Assembly: GCA_027022065.1 (NCBI GenBank)
Contig: JALVZS010000100.1
Span: forward strand, 1 to 5,598
From: a bacterium
Lineage (GTDB): Bacteria > Thermosulfidibacterota > Thermosulfidibacteria > Thermosulfidibacterales > Thermosulfidibacteraceae
Length of the DNA stretch: 5,598 bases
Direction of reading: 5' to 3'
A program made the translations under genes and the position numbers. Below the pieces are notes generated by a model. The model had not been told where the DNA came from, ran no database searches, and saw only the letters and a list, made by a program, of their open reading frames with translations. Shown one piece after another: positions 1 through 5,598 of this stretch (the stretch's first letter is position 1; every line of letters begins with the position of its first letter).

Positions 1-12
1 CTTCTGGGGTGG

Positions 13-384
13 ATGTCGTTATCTGTGTGGCTGGTGTTAAGGTTTTTGTCTTCGGTTCCGCTTTTTAGAAGCGGGATCCCCGGCGTTTACGGGGTGGCTC
101 TGAAGGCTGAGGAAGGAAGCTTTTTTGAAAGTTGCACTCCTATAACAGATGCGGAGGATTTGAGGGACTGGTATTCTAGGAGGCCTGAAGAGCTTGGTTG
201 GTATAAGGTGTACACCTGTGGGGAGGGGGAAGCTTATCTAAAGCTTTTCTACAGAGGAAGGTGGCTGGATAGGTGGAGTGGTAAAGGTAAGCCTCAGTTT
301 CTGGCTTTTATCTGTGGCGACGATGTCCGCTTCGTTGTGCCTTTTTCTTTTTACAGCTTTGCTCCTAAGGTTGAAGCTTTTTAA
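13..384 (+). CDS. Hypothetical protein, possibly 5'-truncated by the window edge
   Basis: I do not recognise this protein. From the ATG at 13 it has 123 residues. Residues 1-18 form a hydrophobic stretch that could be a membrane anchor, the last helix of a longer membrane protein, or a poor signal peptide, since it has no basic n-region. The rest is soluble-looking and rich in Trp, Tyr and Phe, with three well-separated cysteines (C41, C69, C101). The start is uncertain. The ATG has GGGG only three bases upstream, too close for a normal ribosome-binding site, and the frame is open to base 1, so the gene may begin before the window. It stops with TAA at 382-384, 81 bases before the next TTG codon and in the same frame as the following gene. 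Codon use (AGG/AGA arginine) matches its neighbours, which supports real coding. It could belong to the same operon, but nothing seen here fixes a function. Confidence 0.5.
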   Translation: MSLSVWLVLRFLSSVPLFRSGIPGVYGVALKAEEGSFFESCTPITDAEDLRDWYSRRPEELGWYKVYTCGEGEAYLKLFYRGRWLDRWSGKGKPQFLAFICGDDVRFVVPFSFYSFAPKVEAF

Positions 385-389
385 GGATT

Positions 390-418
390 TTGTGTAAGTT
401 TAAGCAGGATCATTAAAT
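390..418 (+). promoter_or_regulatory. Weak sigma-70-like promoter candidate
   Basis: TTGTGT (390-395, 3 of 6 matches to TTGACA) is followed after 17 bases by TTAAAT (413-418, 4 of 6 matches to TATAAT). It is the best-spaced candidate I found in the only intergenic gap of the window and would drive the four downstream genes. The match is poor and this A+T-rich stretch could produce it by chance. Transcription would begin near 425, leaving a very short leader before the candidate CTG start at 439. Confidence 0.2.
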
Positions 419-423
419 TATCC
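407..423 (+). repeat. 17-bp imperfect palindrome, possible operator
   Basis: GGATcATTaAATtATCC reads almost the same on both strands: seven of eight base pairs match around the central A at 415, with one mismatch (C411/T419). It lies between the first gene and the binding-protein gene and overlaps the -10 of the weak promoter candidate, a usual place for a repressor site. It is not followed by a T-run and is not G+C-rich, so it is not a good terminator. A chance palindrome in A+T-rich DNA is possible. Confidence 0.25.
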
Positions 424-427
424 CTTT

Positions 428-433
428 GGAGAG
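428..433 (+). promoter_or_regulatory. Ribosome-binding site that bears on the start of the binding-protein gene
   Basis: GGAGAG stands five bases before an in-frame CTG at 439, which is good Shine-Dalgarno spacing. A second purine run, GAGGAG at 441-446, lies 19 bases before the TTG at 466, too far for efficient initiation there. Together they suggest that translation may begin upstream of the first conventional start codon. Confidence 0.35.
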
Positions 434-465
434 CGTTTCTGAGGAGCGGGGTAGTTATATTACTT

Positions 466-1290
466 TTGTTTTACTATATCAGCATCCTCTTTAGCACAGC
501 TCGGGCTGGTTCTTTGTGCAGGTGTGTGGATGTAGTTCTCTCTGACAGGCTCAAGCCTTATATAGAGATAGCGCAGGGACTTAAAGAATACCTAAAAGGG
601 GTTGATGTTAGGCTAGTCATAGCGGGTAGCGGAGAAACGGCCAGAGTTTTAAAAAACAGCCCTTGTGGCTGCTCTGTTGGGGTAGGGGCTTTTGCTTCAA
701 ACATAGTTGCTGGCAGTTCTAAAAAACATAAAATTTGCTCTCTGATAATATACCCTTTCATAGGCAACTGGCATAACTCTTGTGATTGTGGAGTTTATGC
801 AGAGGTTCCCCCCGGACTGATAATTGACAGCGTGGTCGGGCTAATAAAAACTCCTAAGATACTGGTTCTATATTCTGATCAGGCCATTGAGCCTTACATT
901 GAGAGGATAAGAGAAGAAGCTGATAAAAAAGCGTTCGTAGCGGCTGTTAGGATATCTTCTATAGAGGAGTTAAAGAAAAAGCTTGATATCCTCTGGAAAG
1001 ACATAGACGTTTTGCTGTTTGTTCCTGATCCCATTTTCTCTTCCGAAGGACTTATAAGGTGGTTGGTTAATCAAGCCCTGCTCCATAGAAAGCTAGCAGT
1101 GGGTTACAACAGATTCTTTCTGCAGGTGGGGGCTGGGGTAGCGGTTACTATAGATTATGAGAAGACGGGAGAAGAAACGGCAAAGCTGCTCGGAAGCTGC
1201 GTTGGGCAGAAAAAGGGCAGGTGGATACCCGCTGTGTACCGGGTCTTGTTTAACGATAAGGTGCTAAAGTTCTTGGGTGTGGGGAGATGA
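466..1290 (+). CDS. Periplasmic substrate-binding-like protein (PF04392 type), cysteine-rich
   Basis: This is probably an exported, ligand-binding protein with the two-lobed fold of ABC-transporter substrate-binding proteins of the PF04392 (TrpX-like) family. From the TTG at 466 it has 274 residues, somewhat short for the family. The C-terminal half carries the clearest family pattern: VDVLLFVPDP (181-189), then an AVGYNRFFLQVGAGVAVTID segment (211-230) and TGEETAKLL (234-242). Residues 1-14 look like the end of a signal peptide, with likely cleavage after ARA (12-14). In-frame codons from 439 add MRSGVVILL, which would complete a typical signal sequence, so the true start may be a CTG at 439. 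Eight cysteines include three CxC pairs (18/20, 67/69, 106/108) plus C91 and C245, unusual for the family. No lipobox is seen. Its stop overlaps the kinase start by 4 nt, and no permease or ATPase gene is present in the window, which suggests a sensory rather than a transport role (inference). Confidence 0.85.
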   Translation: MFYYISILFSTARAGSLCRCVDVVLSDRLKPYIEIAQGLKEYLKGVDVRLVIAGSGETARVLKNSPCGCSVGVGAFASNIVAGSSKKHKICSLIIYPFIGNWHNSCDCGVYAEVPPGLIIDSVVGLIKTPKILVLYSDQAIEPYIERIREEADKKAFVAAVRISSIEELKKKLDILWKDIDVLLFVPDPIFSSEGLIRWLVNQALLHRKLAVGYNRFFLQVGAGVAVTIDYEKTGEETAKLLGSCVGQKKGRWIPAVYRVLFNDKVLKFLGVGR

Positions 1291-2663
1291 AGTGGAACAT
1301 AAACGCTAGGATATTTGCAATCTTAACTGTAACGGTTGTTATATCTTCGCTGGCTGTAACGGCTATAACTTACAATATATTTTCCCAGGTCGTTGAGAGC
1401 AGATTTAGGGAAAACCTGCAGCTTACTGCTCGTCACCTTGCCACTGGGGTGAGCATATCGCTGTTGTTCAGGGATGTGTCTTTGATGTCTAGGCTTTCTA
1501 AGACAGTTATGCAGGATCCTGCCGTAATAGGTGTTAGGATAGAGGACGATAAGGGTGAGCAGATATTTAAGCTTGGCTCTGTTGAAGGTAAACACATAGA
1601 TGTTCCCGTCTACATGGCCGAGTCTGAGGAATCCATAGTGTTTCTTCCAAGCGGGCGGAAAAAAGCGTTGGGAACTATTTCCATTTTCTACACGGAAAAG
1701 CACCTAAGGGAGATTTTGGAAAGGCTCGTTTACAAGATAGCCTTAGCGGTTATGCTGGTGATAGTTATAATGACGGTTGTTTCGTATTACACCGTATCAA
1801 GGGCTATAGTTAATCCCCTCATAGGACTTCTACAGGCGGTGAGGGAGGTAAGTGGCGGTAATCTGGATGTGGTTATAAAAGAAGGGAGTCTTCCGGAGAT
1901 TGCTGAGCTTTCTAGGGCTTTTTCAGATATGCTGATTTCTTTGAAGGAGCATCAGGAGCTGTTGAGAAAAACCTATGAGGAGTCTGCCAAGCAAAAGGTT
2001 CTAGCGGATGTTGGCAGGTTTGCCTTTGCCGTGGCTCACGAAATAAAGAATCCGCTTGGAATTATAAAGGGTTCTATGGACCTTCTTAGGAAGGAGGAAG
2101 TGGATAAGGCAACGAAGCTGCAGCTTTTGGGCTTCATTGAAGAGGAAGTTAAAAGGATAGATGGACTAATAAAGGACTTTTTACAGCTGGCTAAGTTCAG
2201 TAAACCCTCTCTTAAGGTTATAAACATTAAAGATTTTCTGCAGAATCTCAAGGAAAAGATCTGCATGAATGGATGTGACTTTGAGATCTCTGTAGAGGCT
2301 GAGGTAAACGAGATAACGGCGGATCCTGTGAAGCTTGAGAGGATAATGGTAAATCTCGTGAGAAACGCTGTGGAGGCCGGTGCTAAAAGGATACTTATAA
2401 GAGTAACCCAGGGTGAAGAGGGCTGGGTCATCCAGGTGCACGATGATGGACCGGGTGTTGGTGAGGAGGAGAAGGATAAGATTTTCCAGCCCTTTTACAC
2501 CACAAAGCCTTCGGGAACGGGGCTTGGTTTGGCCATAGTTTCTCAGGAGGCATATTCCATGGGGGGAAAGGTCTGGGTTGAGGATTCTCACCTGGGAGGT
2601 GCCTGTTTCTGCGTATTTCTTCCTAGGAGGGGTGAAGATGGCGCAGATTCTAGTGGTAGATGA
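1287..2663 (+). CDS. Membrane sensor histidine kinase (HAMP, HisKA, HATPase)
   Basis: This 458-residue protein is the sensor of a two-component system and autophosphorylates on His. Two membrane helices (about 9-33 and 149-171) bracket a periplasmic domain of about 115 residues. Its DPAVIGVRIEDDKGE stretch (77-91) resembles a small Cache/PDC fold; this call is tentative. A HAMP linker follows (about 170-222, Pro177). The dimerisation domain holds the H-box FAVAHEIKNPL (247-257), with His251 as phosphoacceptor. The ATPase domain has an N-box around N356/N360, G1 DDGPG (386-390), F-box FQPFYTTK (400-407) and G2 GTGLGLA (410-416), so all catalytic motifs are intact. There is no cytoplasmic PAS domain. 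The layout resembles ZraS/NtrB-type kinases that partner sigma-54 regulators, which fits the next gene. The ATG overlaps the preceding stop (ATGA); GGTG at 1276-1279 is a plausible ribosome-binding site. C326/C330 and C440/C442 are minor curiosities. The ligand is unknown. Confidence 0.96.
   Translation: MKWNINARIFAILTVTVVISSLAVTAITYNIFSQVVESRFRENLQLTARHLATGVSISLLFRDVSLMSRLSKTVMQDPAVIGVRIEDDKGEQIFKLGSVEGKHIDVPVYMAESEESIVFLPSGRKKALGTISIFYTEKHLREILERLVYKIALAVMLVIVIMTVVSYYTVSRAIVNPLIGLLQAVREVSGGNLDVVIKEGSLPEIAELSRAFSDMLISLKEHQELLRKTYEESAKQKVLADVGRFAFAVAHEIKNPLGIIKGSMDLLRKEEVDKATKLQLLGFIEEEVKRIDGLIKDFLQLAKFSKPSLKVINIKDFLQNLKEKICMNGCDFEISVEAEVNEITADPVKLERIMVNLVRNAVEAGAKRILIRVTQGEEGWVIQVHDDGPGVGEEEKDKIFQPFYTTKPSGTGLGLAIVSQEAYSMGGKVWVEDSHLGGACFCVFLPRRGEDGADSSGR
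2625..2630 (+). promoter_or_regulatory. Strong ribosome-binding site fixing the response-regulator start
   Basis: AGGAGG inside the end of the kinase gene is seven bases before the ATG at 2638. It identifies that ATG, rather than an in-frame ATG at 2578, as the regulator's start. The protein then begins MAQILVVDDEE, exactly where receiver domains normally begin. Confidence 0.85.
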
Positions 2664-3999
2664 TGAGGAGAAGATAAGGAAGATTCTTAAGATCATGCTT
2701 TCTCTAAGGGGCCATTCTGTTGATGAAGCTACCACGGGTGAGGAAGCCTTGGCCAAAATAAAGGAGAGCTATTACGACCTGGTGATAGCCGACATAAAGA
2801 TGCCGGGTATGGATGGGCTGCAGCTTCTTAGAGAGGTGAATGAGTTGGAATATCCTGTCCCCGTGGTTTTCATCACTGCCTATGCCACAGTGGAGTCTGC
2901 TGTGGAAGCAATGAAGATGGGGGCCGTAGACTACATATCAAAGCCCTTTGACGAGGACAGACTGATCTTAACCGTGGAGAAGGCCCTTGGCATATCAAGG
3001 ATACTGGCAGAGAAGAGACAGCTTCAGGAAGAGTTGGACAGAAAAACGCTGCCCAAGGACATCGTTTGCGAATCTGAGGCGATGAAGAAAGTTATACAGC
3101 TAGCGGAGAAGGTGGCAAAGTTGAAGGGAAGCACCGTTCTGATAACAGGCGAGTCGGGAGTGGGCAAAGAGGTGGTTGCAAGATACATCCACAGGATAAG
3201 CCCTAGGGCAAAGCACAGGTTTATAGCGGTTAACTGTGCTGCTATCCCGTCCACTCTTCTAGAATCGGAACTCTTTGGTTACGAGAAGGGCTCTTTTACT
3301 GGAGCCACTTCCCGCAAGAAGGGGGTGTTTGAAAGTGCCAATGGAGGCACGGTTTTTCTTGATGAGATAGGGGATATGCCTCTGGAGGCCCAGGCGAAGC
3401 TTCTAAGGGTGTTGCAGGAAAAGAAGGTGCAAAGGATAGGTGGTACTGAAGAGATACCAGTTGATGTTAGGATAATAGCTGCTACGAACAAGGACCTTGA
3501 GCAGTTGGTAAGGGAAGGCAAGTTTAGAGAGGATCTGTATTACAGGTTGAATGTGTTTCCCATATACATCCCACCTCTAAGGGAGAGAAGAGAGGATATA
3601 GAGCCTCTAACGAGGCTGTTTGTGGAGAGGGTGATGGGGAAGCCCCCTCAGGGACCTGTGCTTACCTCTGGGGCCAAAAAACTTCTTGAAGAGTATCCTT
3701 TCCCTGGCAATGTTAGGGAGCTTGCCAATGCGGTAGAGAGGGCGATTATCCTGTCGGGAGGGGAACTGCCCTTAACCGCTGAGCACTTTTCCTTCCTGAC
3801 GGCTTCTTCCAAGCCTACACAAAGGAAATACATGTTTGAGCTTCCTCCGGAAGGGATATCCTTGGAAGAGCTGGAAAAGGAGCTCATAAAACAGGCCCTT
3901 GAGAGAACGGGCGGGAACAAAAGTGCTGCTGCAAGGTTGTTGGGACTAACAAGGACAAAGCTCAGAACGAGGCTAAAGATGCTGGAAGAGGAGAAGTAA
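2638..3999 (+). CDS. NtrC-family sigma-54-dependent response regulator
   Basis: This 453-residue regulator activates RNA polymerase carrying sigma-54 by ATP-driven remodelling. The receiver domain (about 2-120) has the acidic pair D8/D9, phosphoacceptor D52 in IADIKMPGMDG, T80 and K102. The AAA+ domain (about 142-372) has Walker A GESGVGKE (171-178), a GSFTGA sigma-54-contact loop (218-223; Ser replaces the usual Ala), Walker B TVFLDEIGD (238-246) with D242/E243, sensor-I AATNKDL (281-287) and GNVREL (357-362) containing the R360 arginine. The C-terminal Fis-type helix-turn-helix covers about 425-447 (GGNKSAAARLLGLTRTKL). All three domains are complete and the length is typical of the NtrC/ZraR/AtoC group. 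The start at 2638 is set by AGGAGG and overlaps the kinase by 26 nt; an ATG at 2578 would add 20 residues that are not receiver-like. The overlap implies that kinase and regulator are translated together as cognate partners. Targets are not visible in the intergenic DNA. Confidence 0.97.
   Translation: MAQILVVDDEEKIRKILKIMLSLRGHSVDEATTGEEALAKIKESYYDLVIADIKMPGMDGLQLLREVNELEYPVPVVFITAYATVESAVEAMKMGAVDYISKPFDEDRLILTVEKALGISRILAEKRQLQEELDRKTLPKDIVCESEAMKKVIQLAEKVAKLKGSTVLITGESGVGKEVVARYIHRISPRAKHRFIAVNCAAIPSTLLESELFGYEKGSFTGATSRKKGVFESANGGTVFLDEIGDMPLEAQAKLLRVLQEKKVQRIGGTEEIPVDVRIIAATNKDLEQLVREGKFREDLYYRLNVFPIYIPPLRERREDIEPLTRLFVERVMGKPPQGPVLTSGAKKLLEEYPFPGNVRELANAVERAIILSGGELPLTAEHFSFLTASSKPTQRKYMFELPPEGISLEELEKELIKQALERTGGNKSAAARLLGLTRTKLRTRLKMLEEEK
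3988..3993 (+). promoter_or_regulatory. Ribosome-binding site for the TonB-dependent receptor
   Basis: GAGGAG within the last codons of the response regulator lies seven bases before the GTG at 4001. It is the only reasonable initiation signal for the receptor: the receptor frame has a stop at 3974-3976 and no ATG, GTG or TTG between that stop and 4001. The site lies within translated regulator mRNA, so the two genes are probably translationally coupled. Confidence 0.7.
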
Positions 4000-4000
4000 G

Positions 4001-5598
4001 GTGCTGGTTTTGCTTTTACTTCTGTGCTTCTGTGCCACGGTTCATGCTAATCCGTACCTTTCGGAAAAGCTATTGTTTGTGGGGGAAGACAATCAGGTTC
4101 TCACAATAGCAACCGGTAAGCCACAACTTCCCTATAAAGCACCTGCCGTGGCGGATGTTATCACTGATAGGCAGATGCAGAGGTACGGCTTCAGAACTCT
4201 AGGGGAGGTTTTGTCCACTGTTCCTGGATTTTCTGTTCTCCCGTTAGAGAGTGCCTATTCTCTGTTCCTTAGAGGGATACGCTCAGGAGCACTGTTGCTC
4301 TACGATGGGGTGCCTTTGACCACTGATAGCACAAAGGCCATCTATCCCTTGGGTGATGAGCTTTCTCTTGATCAGGTGAAGAGGATAGAGGTGGTTAGGG
4401 GTAGCGGCTCTGTGCTGTGGGGACCTGATGCCTTTGCGGGAGTCATAAACATAGTGCCTAAAAGGGGGAGAGACTTTTCCGGTCTGCAGATGAAAGTTAT
4501 GTCTGGCACCCCTGATGGGTATAGGGGTTTTGGTATGTCCTTTGGCAAGGATTTTGGCCTATGGGATGTTGCAGGTTTCTTGAGCTACAAGAGGAAGGAG
4601 TCGTTCCTGGGAGGACTGGCTCAGGAGTTCTGGGAGGGGGGATTAAATCTTTATGTGATGGATTCTCTTCAGGTATGTGCCCGGCTGTCAAGCTACAGGA
4701 GACCTTACAGAGCAAGGCTCAAATTGAGGGAGGGAGAGGTTTCCTGGACTTCTAGAAAAGACGTTCCCTTTAGTCTTTTCAAAGTTGAGTACAAAAAAGA
4801 GCTTGGCAGTGCCCTTTTCAAGCTTAAGGGGGCTTTTTCTCAGTGGAATATAACGCAGAGGGATGGGAAGTACTCCTACGGTTACAGGGATAGGATCTAT
4901 TTACTTGAAGGAATGGTGACGAAGGAGCTTTTTGACGGTAAGGGGCTTCTGACAGTTGGAGCTTCCATAAGGAGAAACTTTGCAAAGAACGCGGTGGTGA
5001 ACGTTAGAAGTTTTATACCTGAGTACCTAGCTGCGTCTGTCCCTGTATCTCCTCTGGTTGACAAGCGGTCTTTTGACACCACCCTTTACTCTGCCTTTGC
5101 TCAGTATGTGCACAGGTGGAAGGCGTTTGAGGCGTGGGCTGGTGCTAGAGTTGATAAGCACAGTGATTACGAAAGCAAGGTTTCTTACACTGTGGGCTTG
5201 GGTTTTTACCCTTCGGATAGATTCTCCTTGAAGGTTGTAGGTGGCACATCTTACAGAACTCCCTACGCTTCTCAGTTTCTCAGAAACAAGGTTTCTCCAG
5301 AAAAGCTTACGTCTGTCAGTGCAGAGGTAAGATACAGCCCTTGGAAATGGCTGAGTTTAAAGTTAATGCCTTTTTACAACGACGTGGAAAGGCACGTTAG
5401 CGAGGATTCCTACATGGGATACTCAAGGCCGGCAGACTATTCCACATGGGGTACTGAGTTTAGGATTGATGTTAAAAGAAAGAAGCTGGAGGGGTGGTTC
5501 GACATTACCTATCTCAACAGAAACGGGGGAAAGGAAAAGTTCAAAGTGCTGGACTACATAATTATAACCCCCGAATCTATGGAGGCGGTTTACTCTTA
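4001..5598 (+). CDS. TonB-dependent outer-membrane receptor, 3' end beyond the window
   Basis: This is an outer-membrane active-transport channel powered by the TonB-ExbBD system; 532 codons are present and the gene runs off the window. A short signal peptide (residues 1-16, cleavage after VHA) is followed by a TonB-box-like stretch QVLTIATG (32-39). The plug domain (about 47-155) has the familiar series: VITDRQMQRYGFRTLGEVL, VPGFSV (74-79), FLRGIR (89-94), LLLYDGVPL (98-106), VKRIEVVRGSGSVLWGPDAFAG (126-147, starting VKRIEVVRG) and VINIVPKRG (148-156). The remainder is amphipathic beta-barrel sequence, with the typical TSYRTPYASQF (416-426), SPEKLTSVSAE (432-442) and FYNDVE (458-463). A full protein would usually have about 600-700 residues, so roughly the last strands are missing. 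GTG is the only usable start, one base after the regulator's stop. The n-region has no basic residue, which is unusual. Substrate class is not evident; the look is CirA/BtuB-like. Its position in the operon suggests that it is co-expressed with the sensor genes. Confidence 0.95.
   Translation, partial: MLVLLLLLCFCATVHANPYLSEKLLFVGEDNQVLTIATGKPQLPYKAPAVADVITDRQMQRYGFRTLGEVLSTVPGFSVLPLESAYSLFLRGIRSGALLLYDGVPLTTDSTKAIYPLGDELSLDQVKRIEVVRGSGSVLWGPDAFAGVINIVPKRGRDFSGLQMKVMSGTPDGYRGFGMSFGKDFGLWDVAGFLSYKRKESFLGGLAQEFWEGGLNLYVMDSLQVCARLSSYRRPYRARLKLREGEVSWTSRKDVPFSLFKVEYKKELGSALFKLKGAFSQWNITQRDGKYSYGYRDRIYLLEGMVTKELFDGKGLLTVGASIRRNFAKNAVVNVRSFIPEYLAASVPVSPLVDKRSFDTTLYSAFAQYVHRWKAFEAWAGARVDKHSDYESKVSYTVGLGFYPSDRFSLKVVGGTSYRTPYASQFLRNKVSPEKLTSVSAEVRYSPWKWLSLKLMPFYNDVERHVSEDSYMGYSRPADYSTWGTEFRIDVKRKKLEGWFDITYLNRNGGKEKFKVLDYIIITPESMEAVYS

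Follow-up and report, generated by a model that had tools for sequence, protein, structure and literature searches.

The window, a 5,598-nucleotide stretch of bacterial DNA, encodes a periplasmic binding protein (SBP), a sensor histidine kinase (HK), a response regulator (RR), and a TonB-dependent outer-membrane receptor (TBDR), and we found that they form a single conserved unit that contains no ABC importer genes. Chance does not explain the arrangement, since many genomes repeat this order, and its recurrence in distant bacteria suggests a single conserved circuit for reading chemicals as they enter the cell envelope. We put at roughly 60% the probability that these genes make up a conserved module for sensing across the envelope, with the SBP as a co-receptor for the kinase and sigma-54-dependent transcription as the output. 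A sequence-only reading of this DNA had described the genes as one sensing-and-uptake unit; the conserved unit stood and a sensing role is the best reading, while control of uptake by the regulator was not supported. Over several phyla, the module keeps a TonB receptor, an importer-less SBP, and a two-component pair of the sigma-54 type together in a single order. It offers a testable model in which entry through the outer membrane would be sensed without transport into the cytoplasm, with target genes predicted in some lineages.

Upon re-reading of the open reading frames, all four genes were found on the plus strand with junctions of -4 (SBP/HK), -26 (HK/RR), and +1 nt (RR/TBDR), as had been reported. 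The SBP gene (439..1290) probably starts with a CTG codon at 439, the first in-frame ATG, GTG, or TTG codon being TTG 466. We favor the start at 439 because GGAG at 428..431, the likely ribosome-binding site, lies 7 nt before it and because it gives an intact signal peptide (RSGVVILLLFYYISILFSTARA, 439..504), whereas a start at 466 would leave the signal peptide without its charged end. The kinase (458 aa, 1287..2663) comprises a periplasmic sensor domain (residues 30-150, 1374..1736) followed by matches to HAMP (1794..1946), the HisKA dimerisation domain (2013..2198), with the phosphoacceptor His251 in VAHEIKNP, and HATPase_c (2322..2627). The regulator (2638..3999) carries the NtrC-family set of a receiver (Asp52), a sigma-54 AAA+ domain, and a Fis-type helix-turn-helix, with a GSFTGA loop where the family motif is GAFTGA. 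The receptor (4001..5598) has Plug and barrel matches, a C-terminal aromatic residue, and, at 4076..4117, an FVGED motif and a TonB-box-like stretch (QVLTIATG) that are conserved across the module receptors; a family profile search gave no match to an STN signalling domain in it. Its gene is split by a scaffold gap of 10 Ns at 5599-5608 of the contig (L016, 9659 nt), which interrupts the barrel and at which the window stops exactly, and it continues to contig position 5916. At the opposite end, positions 1-384 hold the C-terminal part of an open reading frame with no family match, which ends 54 nt 5' of the SBP gene.

A comparison of gene neighborhoods, which the sequence-only reading had proposed as a check, bore out the co-occurrence of all four genes in a conserved order without importer genes. 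We compared 34 units, namely the window, five other loci from several groups (L093, L094, L096, L097, identical to L070, and L098, identical to L060), and 28 loci from the phylum of genome G389 (L132-L160 except L141), and each has the exact SBP-HK-RR-TBDR order on one strand. A close SBP is carried by 77 of the 395 genomes of G389's phylum. Of the 29 best-matching loci there, 28 had the exact order and one (L141) is cut off by its contig end beyond the RR gene; the full order was found in none of the 11 lower-scoring loci of this phylum, in one case because of a contig end. A rotated order, TBDR-SBP-HK-RR, occurs in a distant genome (L017), and L095 is cut after the kinase. In the loci measured, junctions were mostly overlapping or nearly touching. 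Relative to L093, a Persephonella MAG contig and the closest relative, identity is 81% for RR, 50% for HK, 48% for TBDR, and 32% for SBP, making the SBP the fastest-diverging member in this comparison. Across the 34 units, SBP identity to the window is 19-29% and RR identity 48-82%, with gene order kept. Since eight sampled relatives from the window's own order gave no SBP match at E <= 1e-12, the unit is patchy within that order.

The statement that no permease or ATPase gene lies within the window was correct for positions 1-5598, and reading the DNA 3' of 5598, as had also been proposed, revealed no importer permease. An ABC ATPase of 384 aa does start just after the receptor end at 5916 (contig 5919-7073); it is of the Wzt/TagH export type with a Wzt_C domain. 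It is followed by a glycosyltransferase and then, on the opposite strand, by a methyltransferase and a SPASM protein, and this block looks like polysaccharide export rather than import. In L093, the Wzt gene is divergent from the SBP gene. An importer just downstream, which would have counted against the sequence-only reading, was ruled out on the Wzt_C domain, the neighboring glycosyltransferase, and this divergence. The whole block (5919-9659 in L016, 299-4559 in L093) lies on opposite sides of the unit in the two contigs, as if inverted or moved along; because of its position on the other side in L093, we regard it as a shared neighbor and no part of the unit. None of the 39 loci of G389's phylum had a permease or ATPase label at a distance of up to three genes from the SBP, and such a label occurred near the SBP in 2 of 38 loci of a broader set, one of the two labels being weak.

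The window SBP scored 15.1 bits against PF04392 (ABC_sub_bind), below the gathering cut-off of 25.9. We nevertheless place it in this family because its orthologues and its predicted fold agree: PF04392 matches were found in seven of eight orthologues (E up to 0.1, best E 2e-22), and the predicted structure (pLDDT 88) and profile searches were led by TrpX (3lft), 3lkv, and CD0873 (6hni), with XylFII also among the fold matches. The SBP retains conserved positions at P40, G83, P196, D197, G222, N224, F227, G231, and Y240, several of which are common to ligand-binding members of the family. The fold and profile are thus those of TrpX-type ABC importers; unlike those systems, the module has a TonB receptor and a kinase as neighbors, and no linked permease and ATPase were present at the window locus or at the module loci examined. 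The SBP seems to have lost its usual ABC importer.

Residues 30-150 of the kinase are predicted to form a single-Cache-like domain (AF2 pLDDT 85). Among solved structures, the LapD-type periplasmic domain of CdgS9 (4u64, Z 12.7) matched best, with WalK next; LuxQ, solved in complex with LuxP (2hj9), belongs to the same single-Cache/PAS fold group and scored Z 9.9. As this fold is common, such a match proves no mechanism. Among families, CHASE8 was the best for the window sensor domain, although below threshold (19.8 bits against a cut-off of 27), and sub-threshold CHASE8 matches were also obtained for six of eight orthologous sensor domains.

The genes next to more distant PF04392-like SBPs encode TonB receptors or transducers with differing outputs, including an HD-GYP protein (L057), MCPs (L071, L078, and L083), a HAMP-PAS protein (L056), hybrid kinases (L018, L059, and L067), and a GGDEF protein encoded by the window's own genome (L022); plain HK outputs occur as well. 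At one or two places from an SBP, 25 of 160 genes encoded receptors, versus 2 of 149 at four or more places; this distance contrast is the informative part of the counts, since profiles built from the units supplied some of the labels. The swapping of the output while the front end stays constant argues for a place of the SBP on the sensing side, and the association of distant SBPs with TonB receptors and varied transducers makes a periplasmic co-receptor, acting on the CHASE8/LapD-like kinase much as TorT acts on TorS, its likeliest role. The proposal that the binding protein informs the periplasmic domain of the kinase is likewise the best reading of signal direction, both because SBPs co-occur with transmembrane transducers whose output domain varies and because the kinase domain has a predicted single-Cache/CHASE8-like fold. 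SBP distances also track those of the kinase sensor domain best once RR distances are accounted for (partial 0.70 versus 0.44 for the kinase core), a signal that vanishes among close pairs. Co-divergence thus weakly supports an SBP-sensor domain link; it is suggestive over all pairs and not proof of contact.

Under the sensing reading, the TonB receptor would admit a compound to the periplasm, where the PF04392-type SBP, no longer working with an ABC importer, would bind it and, as co-receptor, contact the single-Cache/CHASE8-like domain of the kinase. The kinase would then phosphorylate the NtrC-type regulator, which would activate sigma-54 promoters, in several lineages those of genes flanking the module and not of the module itself. 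More tentatively, and at somewhat worse than even odds, the unit may represent a widespread undescribed module in which the TonB receptor feeds an ABC-free SBP that serves as the front end for exchangeable kinase, HD-GYP, GGDEF, or chemotaxis transducers, the two-component form switching on adjoining envelope or secretion genes via sigma-54. Several further SBPs were noted in passing. Two more PF04392-like SBPs of the window's genome (L022 602-3296, contig G000:C249, and L014 1-1888, contig G000:C93) each lie directly 5' of a gene for a membrane protein that gave a Cache-type match, and one of these membrane proteins has GGDEF. A phosphonate-binding-type SBP adjoins the PF04392-like SBP in L062, L064, L074, L084, and L086, with PF12974 confirmed in L062, L084, and L086. 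A supposed SBP-kinase fusion in L075 was rejected: the long frame that contains the SBP match encodes no kinase domain and is no evidence of fusion.

Other explanations of the unit were weighed against these data. Direct binding of small ligands is common among single-Cache domains, which are treated as sensory modules (PMC8846402), so sensing need not fall to the SBP. The Cache domain of the kinase might itself bind the ligand, as do CitA and DcuS, which are among the single-Cache folds in our search, with the SBP and receptor as an uptake route to a permease encoded elsewhere and the role of the two-component pair limited to regulating nearby genes. Two carrier genomes do encode a PF04392-type permease elsewhere. 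The cognate permease is, however, missing from most carriers tested: none was found in the window's genome (G000, 88% complete), in G051, G343, G373, G245, G291, and G388, or in the Persephonella genome, and G105 and G242 gave weak matches only (E about 1e-4). The pairing of distant SBPs with many transducer types also fits signalling over uptake, and we consider this explanation improbable.

Alternatively, the SBP-like protein might have lost ligand binding and serve in the periplasm as a fixed adaptor or brake for the CHASE8-like kinase domain, in the style of YfiR on YfiN, with receptor occupancy as the real input. YfiN carries CHASE8, the best (sub-threshold) family for the sensor domain here and in six of eight orthologues, and the nearest fold is a LapD-type output domain, which is a protein-binding domain. 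This SBP nonetheless retains conserved positions shared with ligand-binding family members, and we found no YfiR (PF13689) match among it and its orthologues; we judge a fixed brake to be about as unlikely as direct binding by the Cache domain. The four genes might also be co-transcribed for shared regulation only, as in an envelope-stress or nutrient operon, with no direct signal transfer. Operon structure alone could yield a conserved order, but this order is kept across phyla at 19-29% SBP identity with no other genes entering, and the SBP-TBDR neighborhood persists when the type of transducer changes, leaving co-transcription alone the least probable of these accounts.

Kinases activated by binding proteins are known in TorT-TorS, LuxP-LuxQ, and XylFII-LytS (PMC6321045), and tripartite envelope systems are known as well, such as YfiBNR (PMC4655355). 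The module resembles the former in having a type-I binding-protein fold adjoining a membrane kinase with a periplasmic domain, the pairing being known here from gene adjacency. It differs in its TonB receptor as a fixed fourth member, its short single-Cache kinase domain, its NtrC-type regulator, and its PF04392 SBP. Like YfiB-YfiR-YfiN, it combines a component in the outer membrane with a periplasmic protein and a transducer in the inner envelope, whose sensor domain here matches CHASE8 below threshold; YfiR, however, belongs to another family, YfiB is a lipoprotein where the module has a TonB receptor, and that system signals through c-di-GMP. ZraP-ZraSR, to which the sequence-only reading had compared the unit, proved a poor analogy and is less close than TorT-TorS, LuxP-LuxQ, and XylFII-LytS. 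Although a kinase, a sigma-54 regulator, and a periplasmic accessory protein are common to both, the module has no ZraP homologue, the SBP has no ZraP-type family match, and the AtoS/ZraS and ZraR models score far below their own cut-offs on the window proteins. To our knowledge, ZraP-ZraSR includes no TonB receptor. FecA-type signalling receptors similarly couple a TonB receptor to gene control; unlike them, the module receptor lacks an STN match, and the contig genes include neither an anti-sigma nor an ECF sigma factor. We found no description of the four-gene module with its TonB receptor in the open-access literature searched. As a caution for annotation, PF04392 proteins labelled as ABC transporter components often adjoin signalling proteins instead.

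Lastly, we scanned for sigma-54 sites with a strict -24/-12 pattern (TGGYAY-N5-TTGCW). In none of the 34 units did the 500 nt preceding the SBP gene contain such a site on the strand of that gene, and self-regulation from a sigma-54 promoter there was rejected; the earlier suggestion that the regulator may control receptor-type uptake is not supported by this result, the sites lying instead before flanking, non-module genes. Strict sites were present in 6 of 30 regions downstream of the receptor versus 0.03 expected (L096, L132-L135, and L138) and in 4 of 34 divergent upstream regions versus 0.06 expected (L153, L154, L155, and L159). Sites thus flank 10 of the 34 modules, and 24 have none nearby; the ten are not ten independent events, since the loci within each group are related. 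Spacers differ between loci while the cores are kept. In L096 and L132, Pfam identifies the product of the gene after the downstream site as a secreted CAP-domain protein, and L133-L135 read alike. The divergent sites precede ketosynthase genes.

The window's contig has no strict site, and sigma-70 and terminator scans gave chance-level results. The window's genome encodes RpoN and contains six strict sites versus three for a reversed control pattern, two of the six before flagellar-type genes. No sigma-54 target common to this genome and the Persephonella genome was found. One site of the window's genome (L172) lies 47 nt before the gene for a 484-aa secreted protein, a candidate target. In L132 (13551-15130) and L096 (14078-15500), the CAP-domain protein and its strict site come right after the receptor. 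Type II secretion genes lie directly upstream of the SBP on the same strand in L094, L096, L134, L138, and L149; the secretin in L134 was confirmed by Pfam and the other Type II secretion genes were assigned by resemblance.
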